Source: Verrucomicrobiota bacterium (lineage in GTDB: Bacteria; Verrucomicrobiota; Kiritimatiellia; RFP12; UBA1067). From it: 64,000 nucleotides of DNA. Both the position numbers and the translations under genes were made by a program. The number at the start of each line of letters is the position of its first letter. Position 1 is the first letter of the stretch. The stretch covers positions 1 to 64,000 of the forward strand of contig JAHFSX010000013.1 in NCBI GenBank assembly GCA_023269675.1, written 5' to 3'. The notes beneath the pieces are model-generated. The model saw only the letters and a program-made list of their open reading frames with translations, had not been told where the DNA came from and made no database searches. Positions 50,533-64,000 of this stretch are shown in pieces.

Positions 50533-51408
50533 TCACTCCAGCACCAGGACGTTCGTCACCTGCCGCGCGGCCACGTGATCCTCCCATTGCCACACCAGCT
50601 CGTTGCCGGCATTGAACTCCACGAGATGCGGGCCCGTGCCGTGTTTGCCGTGGCCCAGCCAGTTCGCAACCACCACGTCGCCGTTGTCCAACCGCTCGAA
50701 CCCGCTGAAGAAGTCCAGCCGCCACGCCGGATGCGTCCCCTTCTTCGGCTCGCCCCAGAAGCGCACCAGCCGCCCCTCGCGGTCCACCTGCACCACCTTG
50801 ACCCCGTTGCCCGTGCCGGCCAGCGTGGTGCCGTCCGCCAGACGGCACACCGCGTAGCCCTTGTCGCCGTACGCCTCCAGCGCCGCGGACCAGACGGCCT
50901 TCCCCTCCGCATCGAGCTCGACGGCGCGGAAGGGCTTGCCGGCCGCCATGAGAATGTGGCCGTTCTCCAGCACCTGCATCACGCGCAGGTAGGCGGCCTC
51001 CGGACAAAGCAGGCGGCTGCCGCACGCGGAACGCAGGTCCTTCCCGACGCAGTGGATCACGATCCCGGAAGGCGCGCTCTCCGCGAGCCACGTGCGGCCG
51101 TCCGCGAGGCGCGCCACCGCGCTGATCCGCCGATAGCCGTCCACGCGGGCGCACTCCGCCCCGCTCTTCAGGTCATACTCCGCAAAGCCGGTGGCGAGCC
51201 CCACCAGCACCCGCCCCTCGCCGACCCGCTGCAGCGAACGCGAAGCCGCGGAGACCGCCCGCGTCCAGTTGTTCGACGGGTTGAACTGGTCCACGTAGAG
51301 CAGCCGCGCGTCCTTCGCGTTGTCGATGCACACGAAGCGGTGCCGCACCTGCGCCTGACCGCATGCGGCCAGCAGGGCCAACCCCATCATCACCCCCACG
51401 CTTCGCAT
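50533..51408 (-). CDS. Secreted beta-propeller protein
   Basis: A 291-residue exported protein. The ATG at 51408 follows AGAGGGGAAAG and gives the signal peptide SVGVMMGLALLAACGQAQV; the Cys in LLAAC could be lipidated. The mature chain has repeated blade-like segments such as VLVGLATGFAEYDLKSGAE, VLENGHILMAAGKPFRAVEL and LADGTTLAGTGNGVKVVQVD, each ending in a D-x-x-G turn, in the manner of PQQ-like or NHL propellers. EFNAGNELVWQWEDH near the C-terminus is a typical last blade. No catalytic residues are evident. It is 67 bp after the HEAT/haem protein gene and may be the last gene of that operon. Confidence 0.78.
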   Translation of the reverse strand: MRSVGVMMGLALLAACGQAQVRHRFVCIDNAKDARLLYVDQFNPSNNWTRAVSAASRSLQRVGEGRVLVGLATGFAEYDLKSGAECARVDGYRRISAVARLADGRTWLAESAPSGIVIHCVGKDLRSACGSRLLCPEAAYLRVMQVLENGHILMAAGKPFRAVELDAEGKAVWSAALEAYGDKGYAVCRLADGTTLAGTGNGVKVVQVDREGRLVRFWGEPKKGTHPAWRLDFFSGFERLDNGDVVVANWLGHGKHGTGPHLVEFNAGNELVWQWEDHVAARQVTNVLVLE

Positions 51409-51475: not shown

Positions 51476-54400
51476 CTACTCCCGCGCCAACAGCGAGGTC
51501 GAGTTTACCGTGCGCATGCGCTCCTCGTCGTGACGGCGCACCACCCCTTTGAACCAGATCTTCCCGCGGTAGCGCAACGCGCCCTCCTGCGGCAGACAGG
51601 CGACAGGCGGCTGCGTCGACGCCTGGACGTACCCGCCCCGGCTCTGCGGCGAGGCGTCGGCGTCCTCATGGCAGCCCATGCACCCGCGGTTCTCGCCGGG
51701 CCGGAGCTGCATCCAGATCAGCTGGTCGCTCAGGATCTGCCAGTCGCTGTCCAAGGCCTGCACGTGGACCAGCCGGTCCGCCGGCACGTCCACCGCGAAC
51801 GAGCCGTCCGGCGCCAAGGGCACGACGCCCAACACGCGCGCCACCGCGCCGCCGTGGTTCTTCCACGAGATGCCGCCGTCCGCGTGCGTCTGGTGGCGCG
51901 CGACCACGGGCAGCCCCTCGACGACCCGCACGTAGCGGGCGCGGGCGCCCACCAGCGGGTCGCGCGAACGGAAGACCGACTGGCAGTCGAGCCGCGCCGT
52001 GAACGCCGCGCGGTTCGCGACCTGCTCGGGCAGCACCGGCGGCCGGGCGCGCGCGACCAGCGGGCGCGCCTCGAAATCGGCGGCCGCGGGATCGTTGTAG
52101 ATCAGGGCCAGCGTGCCGCTCTTCAGGTCCAGCCGATAAAGCCCCTGGTCCACCGCCGCCACGCGGTCACGCGCCAGCCGCCCTTTTTTGTCTTTGGCCA
52201 TCGGCCGCTCCCCCGCCGCCACCAGCAGCGTGTCGTTATCCAGCGGATACGGCGTGGTCAGAGCGTAGCGCTCGTCGGGGAACAGCAGCGTCTGTTCGTT
52301 CTTGCGCGGCCCCGCGAGGAACGGGCCGTCGAAGGAGTTCAGCAGAATCCGCCCGTCCGGCATCTGCTGCGGCTGGGAGAAGGTGAGCACCCGGTGGCGC
52401 GGCGGCGTGGACGCCTCCACGCAGTACCGCTTGCTCCAGAAGGCGCGGCTCTCCGGCCCGTAGAGCGTGAGCGGCTGGGTCCCGTCCGGCAGCACCGACA
52501 GCAGGTTCCACTCGGTCTTGACGCGCGAGTAGATCACCTCGAGACGCGTGAAGAGGATGCGGCCGTCTTGCGCGACCACCGGCTCGGCGTCCCCCCCGAA
52601 ATTCATGCCGATGACGGTGATGCCGCTCCCGTCCGGCTGCATCACGGCCAGCCCCGTCGCCGCATAGCCATGGTACTCGTCGCGCAGGCCGGTGCGGCTG
52701 GTCGTGAAGACGATGCGGCCGTCCGGCAGATAGTTCGGGTGCACGTCATGATAAAACCCGCGCGTCAGCTGGCGCAGCCCCGAGCCGTCGGCGTTCATCT
52801 CGCACACGTGCCACCAGGGATCGTCCTCGCCGCCGCGCCGCGAGAAGAGCAGGCGCGTGCCGTCGTACGACACCTCCAGATCCGCCACATAGCCGTTGGT
52901 GAAAGTCGTCAAGGGCCGCATCGCCGCGCCCGGCTCCTGCGACGCGAGCCGGCAGATCGTGTGCCCCATGCGGAAGACCGGCCCCGAGTCGGTCGTGGAG
53001 TAAGACTGGCGCGTGTACGGGATCTGGAACACATTGTCCGGCTTGAGGCTGCCCTTGATGAAGACCAGCGGCGCCCGCGAAGGATCCGCCGCCGCCCCCG
53101 GCCGGTCCGGCGGCGCCGCCACGTGCCCGGCCGGCGCGACCTCCGGCAGCGGCGCCTGCCTCCGCCACAGCGCCTCTTTGGCCAGCATCCGCACCGACTG
53201 GAACGGATGCGCTTCAGCCACGCCCTGCAGCACCTGCAGCGCCTCCGGCCCGTCGCGGTCCGACAGCGCCCGCACAGCCGCGTACTGGACCTCGAGCGTT
53301 TGCCCCGGATCGTGCGCGTAACGCGTCAGCAGCGGGACCACCTCCGGTCCGCTCAGCCGCCCCGCCGCGATCAGGAAGCTCTCTTTCCAGCGCGGCGAAG
53401 GGTCGTTGAACTCGTCCTGGCCCTGACGCGGGTTCCGGTAGTCGAAAACGCCGCAGAAGCCGTACGCGCTGTCGGGCGGCGCCTGTTCGAGCGTCTTCCG
53501 CAGCGCGGGCGCGCTTCCGCGCGCGTTCAGAAAGAGCAGCGCCTTCGCGGCGTTGATGCGGACCCAGCCGTTGGAGTGCGAGAGCAGGTGCTCGAACCGC
53601 GGCGCGTCGCCCGGCTCGCGGCTGAGCGCCAGCAGGATGTTGGCGCCGTAGACCGGATACCGGACCCGCAGCTCCGCCGCGTTGTGCGAACCGATGGCGC
53701 GGAACGTCTCGTAGAGGTCGCTTCGTTTAACGGGCGGACCCGACTGGCCGAACTCGTCGAAGACCGCCTCGACCGCCTCCCGCCTCACACCCGCGCGCTC
53801 GAACAGCCAGGCCGCGAGCAGCTGGATCGGCTCGGGCTCATACACGATCGACGCGTCGTGGTCGGAGGGCAGGGTGACCATGATCTGCGGCGTCAGGCGT
53901 CGCAGCGCCTCCCGTTGCGCAGGCGTAGACAACTCCAGCCTGCTCAGCGCGAACAGAATGGCGTAGGCCGCGCGCGGCACGCGGTCCGCCGCAGGAAAGC
54001 CGGGCACGTCCATCAGCGGCAGCGAGGGAATCTCTTTCGGGCCGTAGAGGGGCCAGTCGCTCAAGAGCAGCAGGTGCTCCTTCAGCGCATGCTCCGGGAA
54101 GGCCGCCAGCAGCGCGTCGACCGCCGCCGGACCGCCGCAGTCGCCCAGCGCCTCGGCCGCGTAGCACGCCCACTCCTTGACGCCGAGCAGCGCGATCAGC
54201 GTCCGCTCGGCCTCCTCCCCGCCGAGCCGCCCCAGGGCGCGCAGCGCCGCCTGCGCGAAGAGCGCCTCCTCATCATCCCACACCTTCTTCCGATCGGTCA
54301 GATACGGGGCGAGCGCGGCCCGCAGCTGCGGCACCGCCGTTTCGCGCACGCCGACCGCGCCCAGCGCGCGGGCCGCCCGGCAACGTGCCAGCCAATTCGA

Positions 54401-54931
54401 TCCCGACACGTCAGACACCGCATCGAAGCGCAGCGTGCGGCTCTGCGCCGACGCCACGACCTGCCGCCAAGCGTTCCCCTGCCCGCGCCGCACAACCTCG
54501 GGTGCGAAAGCGCTGAAGGCCGGCTCCTGCCCGGTGAGATTGAGGAGCGCGACGGCCGAGGACTGGCGCACCCACACGTCCGTGTCATCCAACGCCGCCA
54601 GCAGCGCGGGCAGCTGCCGCACCCCGCCGCAGAGGCCCAGGCTCGCCGCCGCCGCCCGGCGCACGGCCGCGTCAGGATCAGAAAGCCGCGCGGCCAGCGT
54701 ATCGGCCGCCGCGTACGCCCGCAGGAAACCGAGGTTCTGCAAGGCGACGCCGCGCGCCGCCGGTTGCCCGGCTCCGGAGCGCTCGACCGCCTCGCGGATC
54801 TGCAGGTCATACGGGTTTGTCTGTGCCCATGCCGCAAGCCACACCGGCTCCGCACCGCAGGCGAACGCCAGCGGACAGCAGAGCAGGCCTGTGACCATGA
54901 ACCGTCTGATAAACACGCTCCGCCTTGCCAT
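51476..54931 (-). CDS. HEAT-repeat and HzsA-related protein with one c-type haem motif
   Basis: An 1151-residue exported protein. The signal peptide is about residues 1-27 (FMVTGLLCCPLAFACGAEP). Residues about 60-600 form HEAT-like repeats, for example LSDPDAAVRRAAAASLGLCG and LDDTDVWVRQSSAVALLNLT. Residues about 680-850 are TolB/PD40-like propeller blades (YLPDGRIVFTTSRTGLRDE; QMPDGRILLNSFDGP). The C-terminal part (about 900-1151) resembles the HzsA-related family and ends with one haem site, CMGCHE near residue 1084. Such proteins are common in planctomycetes and relatives and are not evidence for hydrazine synthesis. Its ATG lies 5 bp after the stop of the next HzsA-like gene, so they are co-transcribed. 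Confidence 0.82.
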   Translation of the reverse strand: MARRSVFIRRFMVTGLLCCPLAFACGAEPVWLAAWAQTNPYDLQIREAVERSGAGQPAARGVALQNLGFLRAYAAADTLAARLSDPDAAVRRAAAASLGLCGGVRQLPALLAALDDTDVWVRQSSAVALLNLTGQEPAFSAFAPEVVRRGQGNAWRQVVASAQSRTLRFDAVSDVSGSNWLARCRAARALGAVGVRETAVPQLRAALAPYLTDRKKVWDDEEALFAQAALRALGRLGGEEAERTLIALLGVKEWACYAAEALGDCGGPAAVDALLAAFPEHALKEHLLLLSDWPLYGPKEIPSLPLMDVPGFPAADRVPRAAYAILFALSRLELSTPAQREALRRLTPQIMVTLPSDHDASIVYEPEPIQLLAAWLFERAGVRREAVEAVFDEFGQSGPPVKRSDLYETFRAIGSHNAAELRVRYPVYGANILLALSREPGDAPRFEHLLSHSNGWVRINAAKALLFLNARGSAPALRKTLEQAPPDSAYGFCGVFDYRNPRQGQDEFNDPSPRWKESFLIAAGRLSGPEVVPLLTRYAHDPGQTLEVQYAAVRALSDRDGPEALQVLQGVAEAHPFQSVRMLAKEALWRRQAPLPEVAPAGHVAAPPDRPGAAADPSRAPLVFIKGSLKPDNVFQIPYTRQSYSTTDSGPVFRMGHTICRLASQEPGAAMRPLTTFTNGYVADLEVSYDGTRLLFSRRGGEDDPWWHVCEMNADGSGLRQLTRGFYHDVHPNYLPDGRIVFTTSRTGLRDEYHGYAATGLAVMQPDGSGITVIGMNFGGDAEPVVAQDGRILFTRLEVIYSRVKTEWNLLSVLPDGTQPLTLYGPESRAFWSKRYCVEASTPPRHRVLTFSQPQQMPDGRILLNSFDGPFLAGPRKNEQTLLFPDERYALTTPYPLDNDTLLVAAGERPMAKDKKGRLARDRVAAVDQGLYRLDLKSGTLALIYNDPAAADFEARPLVARARPPVLPEQVANRAAFTARLDCQSVFRSRDPLVGARARYVRVVEGLPVVARHQTHADGGISWKNHGGAVARVLGVVPLAPDGSFAVDVPADRLVHVQALDSDWQILSDQLIWMQLRPGENRGCMGCHEDADASPQSRGGYVQASTQPPVACLPQEGALRYRGKIWFKGVVRRHDEERMRTVNSTSLLARE

Positions 54932-54936
54932 GGAGT

Positions 54937-57900
54937 CTATTTCCCTTCCGCGTTCACGACGCGCCGATACAGGGCCAGTTCTCTGATCTTGCCGCTGAAC
55001 TGATACGGCTTCTCGTTCTGCGCGGAATACTGGCCGAGATAAAACGCTTGGCAGTAGGCCGCCGGCGCAGCGGGCACCGCCACCTCGGCCACAGGCTGTC
55101 CGTTCTGGTAGAGCCTCGCCGTCTGACCGTCATACGTGCCGACCACCCGCACCCACTCGCCCAAAGGCACGGTGCCGCCGTCGCAGGAGACGCCCGCCAG
55201 ATGAAAGCGCCACCGTCCGCCGAACTTCTGCAGGAACCAGCCCGCGCTGTTGAACGGCCCGAAGCCCAGCACCACCGGCATCTCTCCCGGCCCGTCGAAA
55301 AAGGCCTCGACCACAAAGCTGAAGGGCCCGTCCAGGAGCCGCTCGGCGGTCGGGCTCAGCTCCGCGCAACCGCCCGCCGGAACCTGCAGCACCTCGCCTT
55401 CGAAACGCGCGCCGCCCCGCAGGCTCAAGCCCCGGGCCGCGGCCCTCAGCATGAAGACCGGCTCCACGCGCGCCGGCAACGGCCGCGCGGACACCCACTC
55501 CTCCTCCCGCGGCAACCCCGGCTCCGCGCGGCGCGGCGCGCGCGCGAGCACCGCATAGCTCGCCTCCCGGCCCCCATGAAACGTCATGTCCGAAAAGCCC
55601 GTCTCCCTCAGCGGCGCGCCGTTGAGTTTAAGCGGCGCGCCGGCCTGGCCGTTCAGGCGTCCGAACACGTCGTAGGTCGTGACCCCGGGAACCCCCGCCG
55701 GCGTCCAGCGCAGGACAACCTGGCCTTCGCGCGGCTCCGCCTCCGGCCTCGTGACGCGCAGCGCCGGCAGCGCCTCCGGCACGTCCAGCGACGCCCGCAC
55801 CGGCGCGCTGCGCCGCGGCGCGAAGGTCGAGAGCGGACACCGCCCGCCGGGAAGCGCGGTCGTGCCTCCCTTGTCTCCTTCATGCTGATAGTCGAGCACC
55901 GCGCCGCTCCTGCACGTGCCGCAGGTCGCGGCCGGATCGGAGACGAACACCACCGCATAGTGCGCCTGTCCGGGCGGCGGGTGGGTGTCGCAATACGTGA
56001 AGCGCTCCGTGCGGCCGAGGCGCGTCGACTCGCACGGCGCGAAGTCCGCGGCCGCGCCGCGGTGGATCTCCGCAACCAGCCCGATCATGCGCGCCGAGGA
56101 CTCCCAGCCGAGCCGCACGAACCCGTTCCCGTCGAGCGCCGCACAGAGCGCGGGCAGCGGCTCCGGCAGCGCCTGCGGAAGGATCTGCCGCGACCGGCCC
56201 TCGTGAATCCCCTCGCCGACCAGATCCGCTCCCGGCATGTCCACGCGCGGGTTCGCCAGCTGCGCCGCGCGGGCGTCGCGGATGATCCCCAATATCTTCT
56301 GATAATTCGGATCCTTGACCGAAGCGAAGGGCGTCACCGGCTGACCCTCCGGCGGCCAGACCGCGGGCCACGTCTGGGTCGGGAATTTGTCCAAGTCCAT
56401 GACCGCGTGCGCGTAGCCGAAGCCGTAGATCAGGCCCTTGCGGCTGAAGCTCTGGTCCACCTGGCGCGAGCGGCAGAGCGCCAGTCCGTACCCGCCCTCG
56501 GCCGTCGGCGCGGGCGGCAGCGGCGCGCGCAGCACGCGGCTCATCTCGGGCGCGTCCAGATTGATCCACTGGTCGAACCGCCGGATCTCGCCCTTCCCGT
56601 CGGCGTGGCAGCGCGCGCAGCCCGCCTCCTTCATCACCGCTTTGACGGCCGCGACCGCATTCAGGTACGGCTTGGACGTGGGCCCGGCCGCCGTGTAGTC
56701 CCACGTGCCGAAGTACATGCCGTTGGAGTCCATCCACGCGAAGAGCTGCTCGCGCTCCCGCTGCGTCAGCCGGCTCCGGTGCGGCTCCCTGAGCAGGATG
56801 TCGGCCAGCGGCGCCTTGCCGCTGCCGTGCGTGTAGGGCTCGAACACCTTGCACGACCAGTACGCCGTGCCGTTCATGGCACAGATGCCCGCGATCAGAT
56901 CGGCCGTGTACATTTTTTCGCGGCGCGCCGTCAGATGCTCGTACGAGATGTTGAAAAACTCGGTCCAGCCGCGCGAAAGGTCGAGCCCCGCGGCCAGGCC
57001 CTTCTCCCCGCCGTGGCAGCTCACGCAGTTGGCGTCGAGGATCGGCTGGACCCGGGCCGCGTAATCGAGATACCCGCTGCCCCAGGATTCCTCGCGCAGC
57101 CGGCGCGGCGCGCGGTTGGCCAGGCGCGGCGCGCCGGCCGCTTTCGGATTGTACTCGTGGCAGCCCGCGCAGCTGCGCGTGGTGCCGGGCACGGCCTGGA
57201 TGAAGGTGCGCATGCCGCGCACCAGCCGGTAATCCTGGTCCAGCAGCTGGAAGTAGAGAGAGCGCCCGGAGGGCGCCTCGAAGTAGACCGAGCCGTCCGG
57301 CTCCACCGGCACGAGTCCGTGATAGATCTTGGCGCTCCACGCCATGGCGGCGGAGATCATGAAGGTCTGGTTCATCCACGAGCCGCCCGGGCTCTCGCTC
57401 ACGCGCGAGGTCTCCTCCAGCACGCGCAGCCATTTCACCGTCCCCCGCTTGACCGCCGGCATGGAGGCGTACACGTCGTTCACGAAGAACTGCCCCGTGG
57501 CTTGGGTGCGGTCGGTCATGTCGATGTTGGCGCGCGGCAGCGGGCGCGGCGCGAGCGGAATCGGGTTGTGCAGGTCGATCGCCGCATCGCTGTGCACGAC
57601 CACACGCGTGCCGGCGCGGTCGATCAGCATGAGCGCGTTGAGCTTCGGGTTGTTGCGCTTGCGGAACCCGGGGGTCTCCACCGGAACCGACGGCGCGTCC
57701 GGCGCCTGCGGCACGCCGCTGAAGAGCACCACCTGAGCGCTCAGCGCCCACGGGTCGCACGAGTCGCCGCGGTCGTGCGTGGGCTTTCCGGGCGACTCGA
57801 AGTTGAAGATCGCGGCCGGATCGTTCTTGCCCACGCGCGTGTCGACCATGGCGATGGCGCCGCGCGGCGGCGCGTTGTGCGGCGCAAAGGTCGCCACCAC

Positions 57901-58719
57901 CAGCGCGTCGCTGCCCGGCACAGGCTTGGCCTGCAGGACCGCCTCCGGGAAGACCATGTTGTTGGCGTAGAGCGCGGTCTCGTTGCGGCCGTCGGGCAGC
58001 ACCGTCCACAGGCTCTGGATCACCAGCGCGTTGCGGTCGACATACTCCCAGCGCCCGAACAGGATGCGGCCGTCGGGCAGCACGCAGGGATCGAACTCCG
58101 TCACGTTGTTGACCGAGATGGTGTGGATGTCGCCGCCGTCGGCGTTCATCACGTGCAGGATCGCCACGCCGTTGTTGGCGCACGGCACGAGCCCGCTGTA
58201 GCGCGTGGAGGTGAAGACGATCCGACCGTCGGGCAGGTAGCAGGGCTTCACGTCGTGGTGCCCGCCACCTTTGCCTTTGTACGGATTGCCGTTCGCGTCG
58301 AGGTGGGTGACCTGCCGCAAGCCCTTGCCGTCCGTGCCGATCTCATAGATCGCCGAGTTGCCCTGTTCCGATCCTTTGAAACAGAAGAGTAACCGCTTGG
58401 CGTCATATGAAAGTGACGGATCGAAGTAGATGCCCACCCCCAGCGTTTCCGGCGTTTGGGGATCGACCACCGCGCGCACGCGGTGTTGCTCCGGCGGGTC
58501 GGCCGGATTCTCCAGCACGTAGATGCCGCCGCCCGGACGCCACTGGTAGAAGGTGTCGTAGATGTGAAGGCCCTGATAGTTGAACCGTTTGCAAAACAGG
58601 ACCGGCCCGGACAACATCTCACGCGAAGCGACGTCCGCCTCCGCACACCCGCAACCGGCCGCCCCGAGAACCAGAGCCGCAAGCGCCGTTTTTAACCGGC
58701 GTAACTGATTTAGCCGCAT
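54937..58719 (-). CDS. HzsA-related multihaem protein with C-terminal LamG domain
   Basis: A 1260-residue exported protein. The start at 58719 follows GGAGGTG and begins a signal peptide (LKTALAALVLGAAGCGCAE). Residues about 60-330 are PD40/TolB-like blades (CYLPDGRIVFTSTRYSGL; VLPDGRILFGRWEYVDRN), the latter phrase being typical of the HzsA-related family. Three c-type haem sites follow: CAGCHE near 515, CVSCHG near 563 and CARCHA near 700. A fibronectin-type region (about 950-1040) and a LamG/concanavalin-like domain (about 1075-1255, FSFVVEAFF and GEWVRVVGTYDGQTARLYQN) end it. Electron transfer at the cell surface linked to sugar binding is one reading. Its redox partner is unknown. Confidence 0.85.
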   Translation of the reverse strand: MRLNQLRRLKTALAALVLGAAGCGCAEADVASREMLSGPVLFCKRFNYQGLHIYDTFYQWRPGGGIYVLENPADPPEQHRVRAVVDPQTPETLGVGIYFDPSLSYDAKRLLFCFKGSEQGNSAIYEIGTDGKGLRQVTHLDANGNPYKGKGGGHHDVKPCYLPDGRIVFTSTRYSGLVPCANNGVAILHVMNADGGDIHTISVNNVTEFDPCVLPDGRILFGRWEYVDRNALVIQSLWTVLPDGRNETALYANNMVFPEAVLQAKPVPGSDALVVATFAPHNAPPRGAIAMVDTRVGKNDPAAIFNFESPGKPTHDRGDSCDPWALSAQVVLFSGVPQAPDAPSVPVETPGFRKRNNPKLNALMLIDRAGTRVVVHSDAAIDLHNPIPLAPRPLPRANIDMTDRTQATGQFFVNDVYASMPAVKRGTVKWLRVLEETSRVSESPGGSWMNQTFMISAAMAWSAKIYHGLVPVEPDGSVYFEAPSGRSLYFQLLDQDYRLVRGMRTFIQAVPGTTRSCAGCHEYNPKAAGAPRLANRAPRRLREESWGSGYLDYAARVQPILDANCVSCHGGEKGLAAGLDLSRGWTEFFNISYEHLTARREKMYTADLIAGICAMNGTAYWSCKVFEPYTHGSGKAPLADILLREPHRSRLTQREREQLFAWMDSNGMYFGTWDYTAAGPTSKPYLNAVAAVKAVMKEAGCARCHADGKGEIRRFDQWINLDAPEMSRVLRAPLPPAPTAEGGYGLALCRSRQVDQSFSRKGLIYGFGYAHAVMDLDKFPTQTWPAVWPPEGQPVTPFASVKDPNYQKILGIIRDARAAQLANPRVDMPGADLVGEGIHEGRSRQILPQALPEPLPALCAALDGNGFVRLGWESSARMIGLVAEIHRGAAADFAPCESTRLGRTERFTYCDTHPPPGQAHYAVVFVSDPAATCGTCRSGAVLDYQHEGDKGGTTALPGGRCPLSTFAPRRSAPVRASLDVPEALPALRVTRPEAEPREGQVVLRWTPAGVPGVTTYDVFGRLNGQAGAPLKLNGAPLRETGFSDMTFHGGREASYAVLARAPRRAEPGLPREEEWVSARPLPARVEPVFMLRAAARGLSLRGGARFEGEVLQVPAGGCAELSPTAERLLDGPFSFVVEAFFDGPGEMPVVLGFGPFNSAGWFLQKFGGRWRFHLAGVSCDGGTVPLGEWVRVVGTYDGQTARLYQNGQPVAEVAVPAAPAAYCQAFYLGQYSAQNEKPYQFSGKIRELALYRRVVNAEGK

Positions 58720-58736
58720 TCCGCACACCTCCGCCG

Positions 58737-60857
58737 TCACTTCACGGTTTTCCGGACCGACCAGCACATACGGGTCCCTGCCCTCAGCGTCACCGGCACG
58801 CCCTCACTCAGACGCTTTCCGCTCAGGACGGTTGTCGACTCCGCAAGAACGTCCCGCACCTCGTACGTGGAGGTCTCGGCCACCGTGAACCATTCCGGAA
58901 ACTGATTGATGCGCGGATAATCGAGCGGCAGGCGCATATGCAACGTGTGCCGCGGCCGGTCGAAGACGACGTGGCCGGACCACTCCCTGTCCGCAGTGAC
59001 CGTGAGATAGACCTCGCCGTTCTGACGCACGGCGCCGAACCGGACGTCCTCACGCCACGGCCGGACCAGCATGCCCTGCGTTTTCCAAAGCGCGTACATC
59101 AGCGACGTGCGGGCCGAATTGCCGTCGCCATGCCAGCCTTCGATCACGCCGTCGGGCTGCTGTTTGCCCCACATGGTCTTGATCTCCGTATCGGCCCACT
59201 CGGCCGCCGACGCGACGGGCTCGCGGTTGAGAAGCGTGATCGCGCCCTCGATCGAATCGGCATAGCCGTCGGCTGAACCGCTCTGGCACATGCCCCCTTT
59301 TCCCGTGTAATGCTCCCTGAGATTGCCCAGCGCCTGCCGGACCGCATCGCGGTAGGCCTCCGTGCCGTCCAGCAGCCAGACCGTATAAAAACCGTCATAG
59401 TTGTAGCCCCAGTTGTCGGTCAGTTCGTCGCTGTGCGCGCCCGTGCGGGTATCGACGGTCAGATAGAAGAGCCCGTGGCTGTTGCGGCCGATCGCGAGGA
59501 TCCGGTCATACATCTCGTGCAGCGGCTTGCGATAGGCCTCGCGCTTCGCGGGCGCGGCGGCCGCGCAGGCCGCGTAAAGCTCAGACAGGCCGTTGATCAC
59601 CTCGCACGAGTGGTCGCCCAGCGAGAGCTTGGCCAGATCGCGCGTCGGATGGTTGGTGCCGCAGAGGTAGTAGTCGCCGAGCCGGATGGCCCAGTCGAGG
59701 TACTTGCGCTCGCCCGTGAACCAGAAAAGCCGCGCGCAGGCCTGCAGCAGATCGCCGTTGACCTCGAAGTTCAGCGTCGGGATCTTGCCGGACGGCGTCT
59801 CGACGGCGGCGTTCGCCCAGATGTCGTCGATGATGCCGACCGCCCGCACGCTCCAGGGACTCGGCCCCAGCCATTCGGTGATGGGCAGCAGTCCGTCCTT
59901 CACATACTCGGCGCCGTCAAAAAAGATCGCGTCCAGATCGACCTTTTCGCGGCGCCAGCCTCTCTTCGAAAACGAGTAGTCGTCCGGCAAGCGCCCCACG
60001 CGGCTAGTCAGCCGCGTCTCCGTGCGCAGCATCTCCAGCATGCGGCCCTCGAAGAGCTCCCGGTCCGTCATCGCCGCCGTCAGGACCATGAACGGGTAAT
60101 TGTCGGCCGCCGAGTCGCGCCCGTTCCAGAAGTCGCGGCTCTCGCGGAGATTGCGGGGAATCAGGCCGGTCGCCGGGTCGGCCCTGGCCAGCCAGCCGTC
60201 GACAAAGCGCCGGCTGCGGTAGAGCGCCTCGTTGGCCTGCCGCGCGTGAACCTCGCACTGGCGAAAGGCTGCGGCTTCTTGCGGCGAACCGGTCGCCGCG
60301 GCAAAAGAGGCCGAAGGGGTGTCCCAAAGCCTGCGCATCTCAGGGAAAGCCTCGCCCGTGAAACCCGCCGCCCTTGCTTTCAGCGCCGTTTTCACGCGGT
60401 GACTGGGCCGGTCGAGCGACGGACGATCCGGGTCGCCGCCCGGCAGCGTCAGCCGCACCTCCGCGAGAAAGGCCGCCTTGCCCTCGCCGGGCTTCAGCAG
60501 CACGTCATACCGCTCCCCGCGCACCGCGTCCGGCAACGGCACGCGCACCCAGCGGAAGCCGTCGTAGTCTCCGCCTCCGGTCACCGGCAGCGAGACCCCG
60601 CCGACCTGCACGACGGCCGACCGCACATCGTTCTTGGAACCCCACAGCAACTCCAGCGCCGCGCCCGGTCTCGGCTTGACGTCGAAAAGCAGCTCCCACT
60701 CCTGCTGTCCGAGAAAGGTGTAGGACGCGTTTTTGTAAGACTCGGCACCCCCCCGGATCCACGCCACCACCTGAGCCTCGTCCGGCGATGCTCCATGGGC
60801 ATGGATGGCGAACAAAAGGCTCAGCATGACGCTCGCACGTTTCAATGGGAAGATCAT
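58737..60857 (-). CDS. Secreted alpha/alpha-toroid protein of unknown family
   Basis: A 706-residue exported protein. The likely start is ATG at 60857, 10 bp after the previous stop, with signal peptide RASVMLSLLFAIHAHGASP; the ribosome site is weak. Residues about 25-150 are beta-rich. Residues about 170-590 are helical in the manner of an alpha/alpha barrel: GDYYLCGTNHPTRDLAKLSL near 410, SCEVINGLSELYAACAAAAP and WGYNYDGFYTVWLLDGTEAY near 500. The final 110 residues form a beta domain (GEVYLTVTADREWSGHVVFD). Toroid plus sandwich is common to lyases and glycosidases, so a glycan-cleaving role is possible, but no family motif is clear. It lies between a LamG protein and the HzsA-related genes. 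Confidence 0.75.
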   Translation of the reverse strand: MIFPLKRASVMLSLLFAIHAHGASPDEAQVVAWIRGGAESYKNASYTFLGQQEWELLFDVKPRPGAALELLWGSKNDVRSAVVQVGGVSLPVTGGGDYDGFRWVRVPLPDAVRGERYDVLLKPGEGKAAFLAEVRLTLPGGDPDRPSLDRPSHRVKTALKARAAGFTGEAFPEMRRLWDTPSASFAAATGSPQEAAAFRQCEVHARQANEALYRSRRFVDGWLARADPATGLIPRNLRESRDFWNGRDSAADNYPFMVLTAAMTDRELFEGRMLEMLRTETRLTSRVGRLPDDYSFSKRGWRREKVDLDAIFFDGAEYVKDGLLPITEWLGPSPWSVRAVGIIDDIWANAAVETPSGKIPTLNFEVNGDLLQACARLFWFTGERKYLDWAIRLGDYYLCGTNHPTRDLAKLSLGDHSCEVINGLSELYAACAAAAPAKREAYRKPLHEMYDRILAIGRNSHGLFYLTVDTRTGAHSDELTDNWGYNYDGFYTVWLLDGTEAYRDAVRQALGNLREHYTGKGGMCQSGSADGYADSIEGAITLLNREPVASAAEWADTEIKTMWGKQQPDGVIEGWHGDGNSARTSLMYALWKTQGMLVRPWREDVRFGAVRQNGEVYLTVTADREWSGHVVFDRPRHTLHMRLPLDYPRINQFPEWFTVAETSTYEVRDVLAESTTVLSGKRLSEGVPVTLRAGTRMCWSVRKTVK

Positions 60858-60867
60858 GGGTAATTTC

Positions 60868-63800
60868 TCATTTTCTGACCAGCCGCACCGTGTGGGGATG
60901 GCCGTCCGAGAGCGGGATGTTGAAGGTGAGCTGCCACTGCCGCGTAACAGCGACGTAGTCGGCCTGCCAGAAATCGTTGCCGTGGACGCTCTGATCCACA
61001 GGCTTTCCATCAAGCGTAAGTTCGTAGCCCGACGGTCCGGCAAGCCCGGAGAAGGTGACGGGAACGTAGCCGAGCCCGCCGGTGAGCGTGAACTCGGCCG
61101 CGCCGTTCACGGTGCGGACCTTCACGGCGGGATACAAGCCTTGCAGGTCACCGGTCCGCATGGCGACATGCCTGTCATTGCCGACAGCCTCGCGCCGGAT
61201 CATGCGCCAGGTGTTTCCGTCTTTCATCAACGCCGCACTCAGCGCCTTGTTAGGGCCGTAATAATCCTCCGCAGCCTGCGGCATGATGAGGTGCTCGAAG
61301 GTGGCCTCGACGAAGTCGCCGGGCTCGAGCCGCGCGACCCCCGGCGGCGGCACGATGTCCGCCGTCGAGGTGTCCACTCCGCCCACTTTCATGCCGTGCT
61401 CGGCCATCCACGGCGCGGCCTCTTTGCCGCCAAGACGCGCCTTCCAGGAACGGATGACGATGCCGCGGTTGGCCCAAGCACCTGGCTCACCCGGCTTCAC
61501 GCGGGCAACAGCCTCGTGCAGCGAGACCCACGGCACGCGTCCGACACATTCGAAAGGTCCGGCCCGGAGCGTGTCTCCGCCCCACCGCGTGTCCCACTCC
61601 TTCAGCAGACCCGTCTCGTTGCCGAGCGCCATCTTGCGCTCGCCGGTGTAGCTGTAGGTGTCGGCCCCGATCTGGAAGATGACGAAGCGGCTGAACGCCA
61701 CAGGCTTTGTCACGTCGAGCCGCAGGCGGTAGACGCCGCGCACGATATCGTCGGTGCGGCCCAGGCTGACGGTGGCCGCGTGTTCGAGCGCGGGACCGGT
61801 GTGGCCCGCGTAAGTCACTTCGGTCAGGCAAGGCCCCTGCCTCTCATACGCCGTGCGCATGCGGGCCGGGAACACGCGCTGGCCCTCCGCATCGAACAAC
61901 CTGAAGAAGTCGCCGCCGCCCACGTTATGCGTCCATCCCCACTCCGCGTTGCTGTTCATCGAACGGACCATCACCGGCCGCACGTCGAGGACCGCGGCGT
62001 GCGCCTGCGCCTGGTCCGGCTCGTAACAGATGCTCTCGCCCCAGGAGCCGAGCGCGCTCTGGTCCCAGAGCTGGTTACTGCCCCACCCGATCAGACAGAG
62101 CTGCGCGTGCGACGCCGCCGCCACCCCGCCCCAGTGCCCGTACGCCAGCGTTAGCTCCAATTCCACATTCGCTTTAGCAGGCAACCGGATCAACGAGAAG
62201 CCGTGGAACCACGGACCCACATAAACACCTCCGTCGGGACGCCCATGCCAGTTCTTGCTGAGCTGCACCGGGATGCCGGTCGGGTTACCTGCCGCATCGC
62301 GCAGGATGGCTGAAACGCCCGTGATGGAAATGCCGGCCTTTCGTTCGAACAACAGCCGGATGGGCTGCTCGCGGTCGGCGGGATTCGCAAGCGTGAGCCG
62401 CACGCGCTCGAGCGCGTCATTCTTGCCCCGGTTCCCGCCCGCCGGCAGGACCGGTTTGACGCCGTCGAGGTCGACCCGATGCCAGCCGCGCGCGCGGTCG
62501 AAGGTTATCGGACACTCCATGCCTTGGGTCAGCGCCTTCGCCTGAACGCCCACCGGCTGCAGAGATGGCGGCTTATCCGCAGACAGCCTGCGCAGGGAGG
62601 CGCCGAGCCCGGTCTCCGTCCACCTTCGGATGTCGCTCGCGTCCAGCGTCACCGCAACTTCCTGCCACGCGTCGTCGGAAAGCCCCTGCCGTTCGACGCG
62701 CTGCTGCGTCCGTCCCTCTCGGGCGGACAGGCCGATCTCCATCGAAGCCGCATTCCAAGTCTCGCGGGGCTGCCTCAAGGATGCCTGCCCGTCGGCGCGG
62801 AAACTCCATTCGCGGACAGGCGTCAACACGGGACTGGCTGCCTCGGGCTTGGCGAAACGACCGCGCACCTCGGCGTCCGTCAGCGCGCGGCCGTAGAACC
62901 GGATCTCGTCGACCGCACCGCGGAAATAGTATCCGTCGCCGCAGTTGTCCTGGCGCCGCCCGAAGGCCAGTCCGCCGCGGCCCGGAATCCTCCGCCGCCC
63001 GATTTTCTGTTCGCCCGCCCGGTCGCCGTTGACGTAGAACCGCAAAGCGTCGCCGTCATAGCTCAGCGCCAGATGGTTCCACGCCTCGCTCTTCAACATC
63101 CCGGGGCGCGCGTCGACCTTGAACGCGCCGTCCTTCCCGCCGCCGATATTCAGCCGCGCCTGCGGCACGCCGTTCAGAATCACGATCCCGTAGTTGCCCT
63201 CGGCCTGCTCATGAGCGTTTTTGCACACCAGCCAGGGATGGGTCCGCGCGGAAACCTGGCAGTCCGCCGGCACAAAGGCCCACAGCTCCAGCGTGAAGCG
63301 CTCCGGTTCCAACTCCGGGCTGTGAGCGATTTCAAGGTGGTTCGTGCCGTCCAGACCGAAGCCGCCGCCGACGCGGCCAAAACACGCCTCGCCTGCGGGG
63401 ATGGGCCGCAGCCCCGGACGCGCCGCAAGAATCAGCCCCAGCCGGTCCGGCCACGCCACGGTCTCGAAGCGCGCCTCGGCGTTGAGCCGCCGTCCGTCCG
63501 CGGACTCGAACACGAGATCCGTCACGTCAGCGCGCTGCACGAAACGCCCCGACTCGATCAGGCGCGGCCCGGCGAGAGGGGTCCACTTGCCGCCCGCCAC
63601 ACAGCGGTAGGCCATGCCGTTCGCGCTGATCGAGAGCGTCAGGTCGGCCGGCGGCAGACGCTGCCACGCGCGGTTATCCGCCCGGGCGCATTCGGCATAG
63701 CCCAGGCCGGCCGGCACAGAACCGAAGTGCGGCATCCGCATCGTCTCCGTGTCCAGCGCCAACGCGTAAGAACCCGTCTGGATCATGCGCCGCCACGGCG

Positions 63801-63969
63801 CTTCGGGCGTGTGCGAGGGGAAGCCCTCCGCCCACCACATGTGCGTGTAGTCCTCCACGCGCGGCATCAAGGCCTGCGCTGGCATTGGCCCCTGTTGCGC
63901 GGCGTACACGTGCGTCAAGACGCACGGGCCCAGCAGTAGGGCGATCCCCCACGCATGCGAGCGTCTCAT
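60868..63969 (-). CDS. Large secreted LamG-domain protein
   Basis: A 1033-residue exported protein. AAAGGA precedes the ATG at 63969, and the signal peptide is GIALLLGPCVLTHVYAAQ. A LamG/concanavalin-like domain occupies about 205-370 (HLEIAHSPELEPERFTLELW; NHLALSYDGDALRFYVNGDR; GAVDEIRFYGRALTDAEV), a fold that binds sugars. The remaining 650 residues are mostly beta-rich, with PAKANVELELTLAYGHWGG near 600 and GFSLIRL just before it, and no catalytic motif that I recognise. It is the first visible gene of the minus-strand operon at 51.5-64 kb; earlier genes may lie beyond the right edge, since only 31 bp remain upstream. Confidence 0.82.
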   Translation of the reverse strand: MRRSHAWGIALLLGPCVLTHVYAAQQGPMPAQALMPRVEDYTHMWWAEGFPSHTPEAPWRRMIQTGSYALALDTETMRMPHFGSVPAGLGYAECARADNRAWQRLPPADLTLSISANGMAYRCVAGGKWTPLAGPRLIESGRFVQRADVTDLVFESADGRRLNAEARFETVAWPDRLGLILAARPGLRPIPAGEACFGRVGGGFGLDGTNHLEIAHSPELEPERFTLELWAFVPADCQVSARTHPWLVCKNAHEQAEGNYGIVILNGVPQARLNIGGGKDGAFKVDARPGMLKSEAWNHLALSYDGDALRFYVNGDRAGEQKIGRRRIPGRGGLAFGRRQDNCGDGYYFRGAVDEIRFYGRALTDAEVRGRFAKPEAASPVLTPVREWSFRADGQASLRQPRETWNAASMEIGLSAREGRTQQRVERQGLSDDAWQEVAVTLDASDIRRWTETGLGASLRRLSADKPPSLQPVGVQAKALTQGMECPITFDRARGWHRVDLDGVKPVLPAGGNRGKNDALERVRLTLANPADREQPIRLLFERKAGISITGVSAILRDAAGNPTGIPVQLSKNWHGRPDGGVYVGPWFHGFSLIRLPAKANVELELTLAYGHWGGVAAASHAQLCLIGWGSNQLWDQSALGSWGESICYEPDQAQAHAAVLDVRPVMVRSMNSNAEWGWTHNVGGGDFFRLFDAEGQRVFPARMRTAYERQGPCLTEVTYAGHTGPALEHAATVSLGRTDDIVRGVYRLRLDVTKPVAFSRFVIFQIGADTYSYTGERKMALGNETGLLKEWDTRWGGDTLRAGPFECVGRVPWVSLHEAVARVKPGEPGAWANRGIVIRSWKARLGGKEAAPWMAEHGMKVGGVDTSTADIVPPPGVARLEPGDFVEATFEHLIMPQAAEDYYGPNKALSAALMKDGNTWRMIRREAVGNDRHVAMRTGDLQGLYPAVKVRTVNGAAEFTLTGGLGYVPVTFSGLAGPSGYELTLDGKPVDQSVHGNDFWQADYVAVTRQWQLTFNIPLSDGHPHTVRLVRK

Positions 63970-64000
63970 TTGGCGTCCTTTTTCTCTTGCTCGAGTGACT

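Follow-up and report, generated by a model that had tools for sequence, protein, structure and literature searches.

Four intact open reading frames, here called A, B, C and D, lie on the minus strand of the window (the whole stretch of 64,000 nucleotides that was analysed, from an uncultured Kiritimatiellota-type bacterium) and encode proteins of 1033, 706, 1260 and 1151 residues, separated by gaps of 10 bp (A-B), 17 bp (B-C) and 5 bp (C-D). Coordinates, lengths and gaps confirm those of the original prediction, which had described these genes as a four-gene operon for large secreted proteins. Co-direction and short gaps bear the operon out, but its extent is larger than supposed. The window edge lies 31 bp upstream of the start of A, and the adjoining stretch of the same contig (L074, C65:60001-80000), from which the upstream part was read, holds three further co-directional genes, H, S2 and S1. 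At least eight genes in the order S1-S2-H-A-B-C-D-E run on the same strand from C65:69337 to 50533, beginning 5.3 kb past the window edge, with A to D forming the middle of the operon. S1, S2 and H had been missed because of the window edge, and E because of a slightly larger gap. E starts 67 bp downstream of D, its ATG is preceded by a GA-rich, SD-like sequence, and it is probably the last gene of the operon. The genes of the locus are as follows.

S1, C65:67631-69337 (outside the window), minus strand: SASA carbohydrate esterase, 568 aa
S2, C65:66029-67579 (outside the window), minus strand: SASA carbohydrate esterase, 516 aa
H, C65:63966-65972 (3' end at 63966..64000 in the window), minus strand: alpha/beta hydrolase, AXE1/DLH-like esterase, 668 aa
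A, 60868..63969, minus strand: 1033 aa, predicted exported, LamG inserted in an unnamed core
B, 58737..60857, minus strand: 706 aa, predicted exported, weak GH76 resemblance
C, 54937..58719, minus strand: 1260 aa, propeller and middle domain of HzsA type, with three motifs for c-haem
D, 51476..54931, minus strand: 1151 aa, HEAT repeats at the N terminus, propeller and middle domain of HzsA type, with a single motif for c-haem
E, 50533..51408, minus strand: about 291 aa, beta-propeller-like, with a lipobox (LAAC)
GH97 gene, C65:69492-71360 (L074:9492-11360): divergent from S1

H and A overlap by 4 bp, at the 3' end of H and the start of A. A promoter scan of the in-window part of the operon predicted no internal promoter-like site (weak evidence), and Rfam and tRNA scans gave no matches. 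The tight spacing, the overlap, the lack of a predicted internal promoter and the presence of esterases all count for the operon reading. Signal-peptide-like N termini were found on all eight proteins, in agreement with the export that had been predicted for A to D. H matches BAAT_C (7.9e-6), DLH (2.3e-5) and AXE1 (5.3e-5), and E has a sub-threshold match to Arylsulfotran_2 (0.033). The polysaccharide context proposed originally is upheld by the two SASA esterases, the AXE1-like esterase, the divergent GH97 gene, which is separated from S1 by an intergenic space of about 150 bp, and the fusions of A-type cores described below. At the level of sequence, S1 to E constitute an esterase-rich operon whose predicted exported products are glycan-directed.

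Proteins A and B

Two of the four proteins had been expected to carry LamG domains, and Pfam places these in A and C. In A the match is to Laminin_G_3 (4.4e-23).

LamG (Laminin_G_3) of A, 62866..63351, minus strand: residues 207-368

This domain was matched in 5 of the 14 A-type relatives scanned and is an optional module. A has a core, about residues 30-190 and 470-1033, that represents a family of its own without a Pfam name, and neither A nor B falls into a curated Pfam enzyme family at threshold. A-type cores are fused to a sulfatase in three genomes (L247, L248 and L249), to an AXE1-like esterase and an alginate lyase in L236, to an AXE1-like domain within a repeat-rich protein in L243, and to SASA together with a sugar-binding domain of GH2 type in L250. 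Since these fusion partners match the operon neighbours of A, namely H and the SASA esterases, they provide the best evidence for a decorated polysaccharide as the target. The A-type core of these proteins is an unnamed module of putative polysaccharide enzymes.

B had been described as a toroid protein. Its single Pfam match, GH76 (PF03663), is sub-threshold (E 0.012) and reaches 15.6 bits against a gathering score of 25.9. Relatives of B show 49-77% identity and come from few genomes; sub-threshold GH76 matches occur in 6 of 10 of them, with a best E of 0.0037. The structural model of B, based on a two-sequence alignment and of low confidence (pLDDT 42), consists of a beta-sandwich, a helical middle and a second beta-sandwich. 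The helical middle of this model and the sub-threshold GH76 matches are weak evidence for a toroid, and B is toroid-like at most.

The haem proteins C and D

The two HzsA-related proteins of the original prediction, with three and one CxxCH motifs, are C and D, respectively. HZS_alpha is found in both and the relationship is distant. C measures 1260 aa from its ATG and would reach 1276 aa from a GTG start. It matches HZS_alpha (3.9e-19), Laminin_G_3 (6.5e-14) and cytochrome c (3.6e-8), while D matches HZS_alpha (8.5e-18), PD40 (1.8e-4) and, as foreseen for the HEAT domain, HEAT_2 (2.6e-33).

HZS_alpha middle domain of C, 57154..57444, minus strand: residues 426-522, with haem motif 1 at its end
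Haem motif 1 of C, 57157-57171, minus strand: CAGCH at residues 517-521, at the place of HzsA haem alpha-I
Haem motif 2 of C, 57013..57027, minus strand: CVSCH at residues 565-569, equivalent of HzsA haem alpha-II
Haem motif 3 of C, 56605..56619, minus strand: CARCH at residues 701-705, in a region with no equivalent in HzsA
LamG of C, 54946..55242, minus strand: residues 1160-1258, C-terminal
HZS_alpha middle domain of D, 51665..51937, minus strand: residues 999-1089, with the haem motif CMGCH

H647 of C aligns with the distal His772 of HzsA and is nearly invariant in the C family. H771 and M828 are invariant in this family and are candidate distal ligands for haem motif 3. In D, which has a single CxxCH, the HzsA-like part stops after the first haem and no alpha-II domain follows.

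A scan of public genomes revealed relatives of C at 53 loci elsewhere, in Verrucomicrobiota/Kiritimatiellota, Lentisphaerae, Planctomycetota and others. The orthologous set (47-84% identity) extends across PVC phyla and forms one clade that excludes the remaining HzsA-like proteins encoded in this genome (tree support 0.84). Every full-length orthologue contains exactly three CxxCH motifs, and this constancy, together with the number of loci, argues that the observation is not due to chance. In 11 relatives the match does not reach the LamG tail but stops at about residue 925-942, and LamG is apparently missing; the conserved unit is therefore a three-haem core of about 920 residues, to which LamG is an add-on. 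By these comparisons, C belongs to a conserved, uncharacterised family of predicted three-haem proteins that is common to many related bacteria. We found no published description of this family.

LamG, HEAT repeats and propellers serve as binding or scaffold modules, and D does without a second haem domain. These features would fit an alternative in which C and D are non-catalytic surface glycan-binding or scaffold proteins and the haems are structural or vestigial. We regard this as unlikely, since the three haem motifs are invariant in all full-length C orthologues from several phyla, unlike vestigial sites.

The genome possesses one cytochrome c assembly gene (CcsA-type, PF01578). With an export signal, CxxCH and this haem attachment gene in the genome, C and D have the sequence hallmarks of c-type cytochromes. 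HZS_alpha genes number 36 in this genome (contigs C1-C85) and 35 in a same-genus relative, and are missing from 40 of the 95 genomes compared. HZS_alpha and PF01578 are both present in 54 of these genomes and both absent in 32, with 1 and 8 discordant genomes when relatedness is ignored; the co-occurrence also holds by genus (p 1.3e-4). Such a correlation is expected of any c-type cytochrome. Elsewhere in this genome, C85 (L075:5103-15802, about 163-174 kb) carries three different HzsA-like genes in tandem, with two haem motifs each, C50 carries a pair of HzsA-like genes, and C36 (L079:3497-12832) encodes an HzsA-like protein of 3111 residues that contains four CxxCH and a short MauG-like stretch.

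At 10 of 42 loci, another HzsA-like gene, not orthologous to C, was found at most two genes away from C. HzsA-like genes made up 12 of the 146 near genes of C versus 1 of the 190 farther genes (p = 2.8e-4). HzsA-like genes tend to pair, and D is probably the one-haem partner of C. D is deeply diverged from C and is therefore not a recent duplicate of it; its closest relatives are found in L030, also with one haem, in G005, as two contig fragments, and as a more distant paralogue in its own genome.

Gene neighbourhoods and proposed function

Synteny across genomes revealed that A, B, C and D rarely occur together. In the same-genus genome, B is missing and A (75%) lies on another contig than C (84%); nor is C constantly accompanied by true orthologues of A, B and D. 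Consequently, the fixed four-protein complex that had been envisaged is not supported, the more so as LamG is an optional module of A as well as of C. In G005, a two-haem HzsA-like gene is followed by B and then C. On a Puniceicoccales contig (L030:7118-15277), a D-type gene is followed directly by a 3-keto-disaccharide hydrolase gene (2.4e-77) and then by C.

We tallied the neighbours of C using other genes of the same loci as controls. No enrichment was observed for sugar-isomerase genes (6/84 near C versus 2/84 in the control, p 0.28), for Gfo/Idh/MocA genes (4 versus 5) or for sulfatase genes (3 versus 4), and no conserved neighbour family emerged around C, the largest cluster comprising 3 loci. 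On these tallies we rejected a general link of C to 3-keto-sugar or sulfatase genes; L030 is the only case seen in which a 3-keto-disaccharide hydrolase gene separates D from C. Carbohydrate genes near C are common, yet not above control, and hence the glycan reading of C rests on its LamG, on this operon and on L030.

We tentatively favour the reading that S1 to E form an eight-gene exported glycan-processing operon with C and D as haem redox partners. The esterases would strip acyl groups off a decorated, perhaps uronate-containing, polysaccharide, which A would bind via its LamG and help to trim, while B would attack the chain. C, which its own LamG would anchor to the glycan, would act as the redox partner, either taking electrons from sugar oxidation or itself performing it at the HzsA-type first haem, from where electrons might travel along the second and third haems; D would be its one-haem partner. 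That C and D in fact oxidise glycans, or accept electrons from glycan oxidation, is conceivable although rather unlikely.

No haem-copper oxidase was found in the 95 genomes compared, this one included, and the terminal acceptor can therefore not be such an oxidase, unless its gene falls into the few percent that the assembly lacks. A cytochrome bd oxidase is present in 5 of the 95 genomes, among them this one (one gene). Cytochrome bd oxidase takes electrons from quinol, not from cytochrome c.

The locus could also be glycan-processing while C and D are general exported haem proteins that were inserted by chance, be they peroxidase-like, NO/ROS-handling or carriers between periplasmic oxidoreductases. 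This explanation is doubtful but has to be taken seriously, as HzsA-like genes occur in 36 places of this genome beside very different genes, carbohydrate genes are not enriched around C over background, and C is not steadily accompanied by orthologues of A, B and D. However, the C-terminal LamG on many C orthologues points to glycan binding, and both the row of D, 3-keto-disaccharide hydrolase and C in L030 and the tight spacing inside this operon are at odds with chance insertion.

The locus gives one HzsA-like subfamily a concrete and testable setting, a three-haem protein among glycan-processing genes. HzsA relatives outside anammox bacteria are known, to our knowledge without an assigned function. 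The substrate of C would show what role relatives of hydrazine synthase play outside anammox, and how fermentative PVC bacteria put such a large number of cytochromes to use. On a broader scale, the three-haem C family and a second HzsA-like protein might represent a widespread PVC system that oxidises poly- or oligosaccharides and leads the electrons out via a c-haem chain without haem-copper oxidase, the products being, for example, keto-sugars cleaved by a 3-keto-glycoside hydrolase. We give this extension little credence. If it were true, hydrazine synthase would be a specialised branch within a haem superfamily that oxidises sugars.

Comparison with hydrazine synthase and other known systems

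C and D share with HzsA of Kuenenia (PDB 5C2V) the propeller and the HZS_alpha middle domain with its c-haem. In C alone an alpha-II c-haem domain with the His772 equivalent follows, which is missing in D. C differs from HzsA by its third haem region and LamG, and D by its HEAT repeats and the lack of alpha-II. The model of C (residues 61-1260, pLDDT 75) has hydrazine synthase alpha, 5C2V, as its best structural match (E 4.2e-18). Together with the HZS_alpha domain and the retained distal histidine, this match would speak for enzymes of the hydrazine synthase type, which combine two nitrogen compounds as in anammox. The ligand of the alpha-I haem in HzsA is Tyr591, located 4 residues past the CxxCH histidine (PMC12607021, PMC12758564). 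A profile alignment to 5C2V, which took in Tyr591 and His772 while the Cys303 zinc-site stretch lay outside it, revealed that Tyr591 is replaced by Pro in C (CHEYNP) and by Asp in D (CHEDAD). A tyrosine at this +4 position is sporadic, being present in some C orthologues (e.g. L046, L051) and in one paralogue of this genome (L076_3), and is therefore not a conserved feature. Furthermore, C and D score 48-51 bits against the NCBIfam model hydrazine_alpha (NF052339), far from its cut-off of 800, and a whole-genome search for an HzsC-type partner with the CCP_MauG profile matched only a 67-position stretch inside another HzsA-like protein of ~3100 residues. The same loss of key residues has been published for non-anammox HZS-alpha homologues (PMC12758564). 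Given the loss of Tyr591, the NCBIfam scores and the lack of an HzsC-type gene, hydrazine synthase activity of C and D was rejected as highly improbable. Judging by these residues and scores, C and D are distantly related to HzsA but are not hydrazine synthase.

Non-anammox HZS-alpha clades I-III from Planctomycetota/Desulfobacterota (PMC12758564) and hzs-like genes (PMC10732223) resemble C and D in their distant homology, the canonical first haem motif and the absence of the Tyr591 ligand. These homologues are paired with beta-gamma (propeller/MauG-like) genes, whereas we found no MauG-like partner for C and D. In addition, C retains the alpha-II distal histidine, which clade I (PMC12758564) lacks, and lies in a glycan-related operon.

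The operon resembles polysaccharide utilisation loci with SASA/AXE1-type esterases in that co-directional exported esterases and binding proteins are encoded beside a glycoside hydrolase, here the divergent GH97. It differs from them by the haem proteins inside the operon and by A and B, which lie outside the curated Pfam enzyme families at threshold. PSCyt proteins with carbohydrate-binding modules, for which a role in carbohydrate metabolism has been proposed (PMC5615132), are likewise PVC c-type haem proteins of expanded number, with some Laminin_G_3 fusions and a location near sulfatases and glycoside hydrolases. In contrast, the haem family of C and D is HZS_alpha, neither protein containing a PSCyt or PSD Pfam domain, and their host lineage is devoid of haem-copper oxidase. 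The closest published idea for this locus is that of PVC cytochromes with carbohydrate-binding modules (PMC5615132), which concerns a different cytochrome family.
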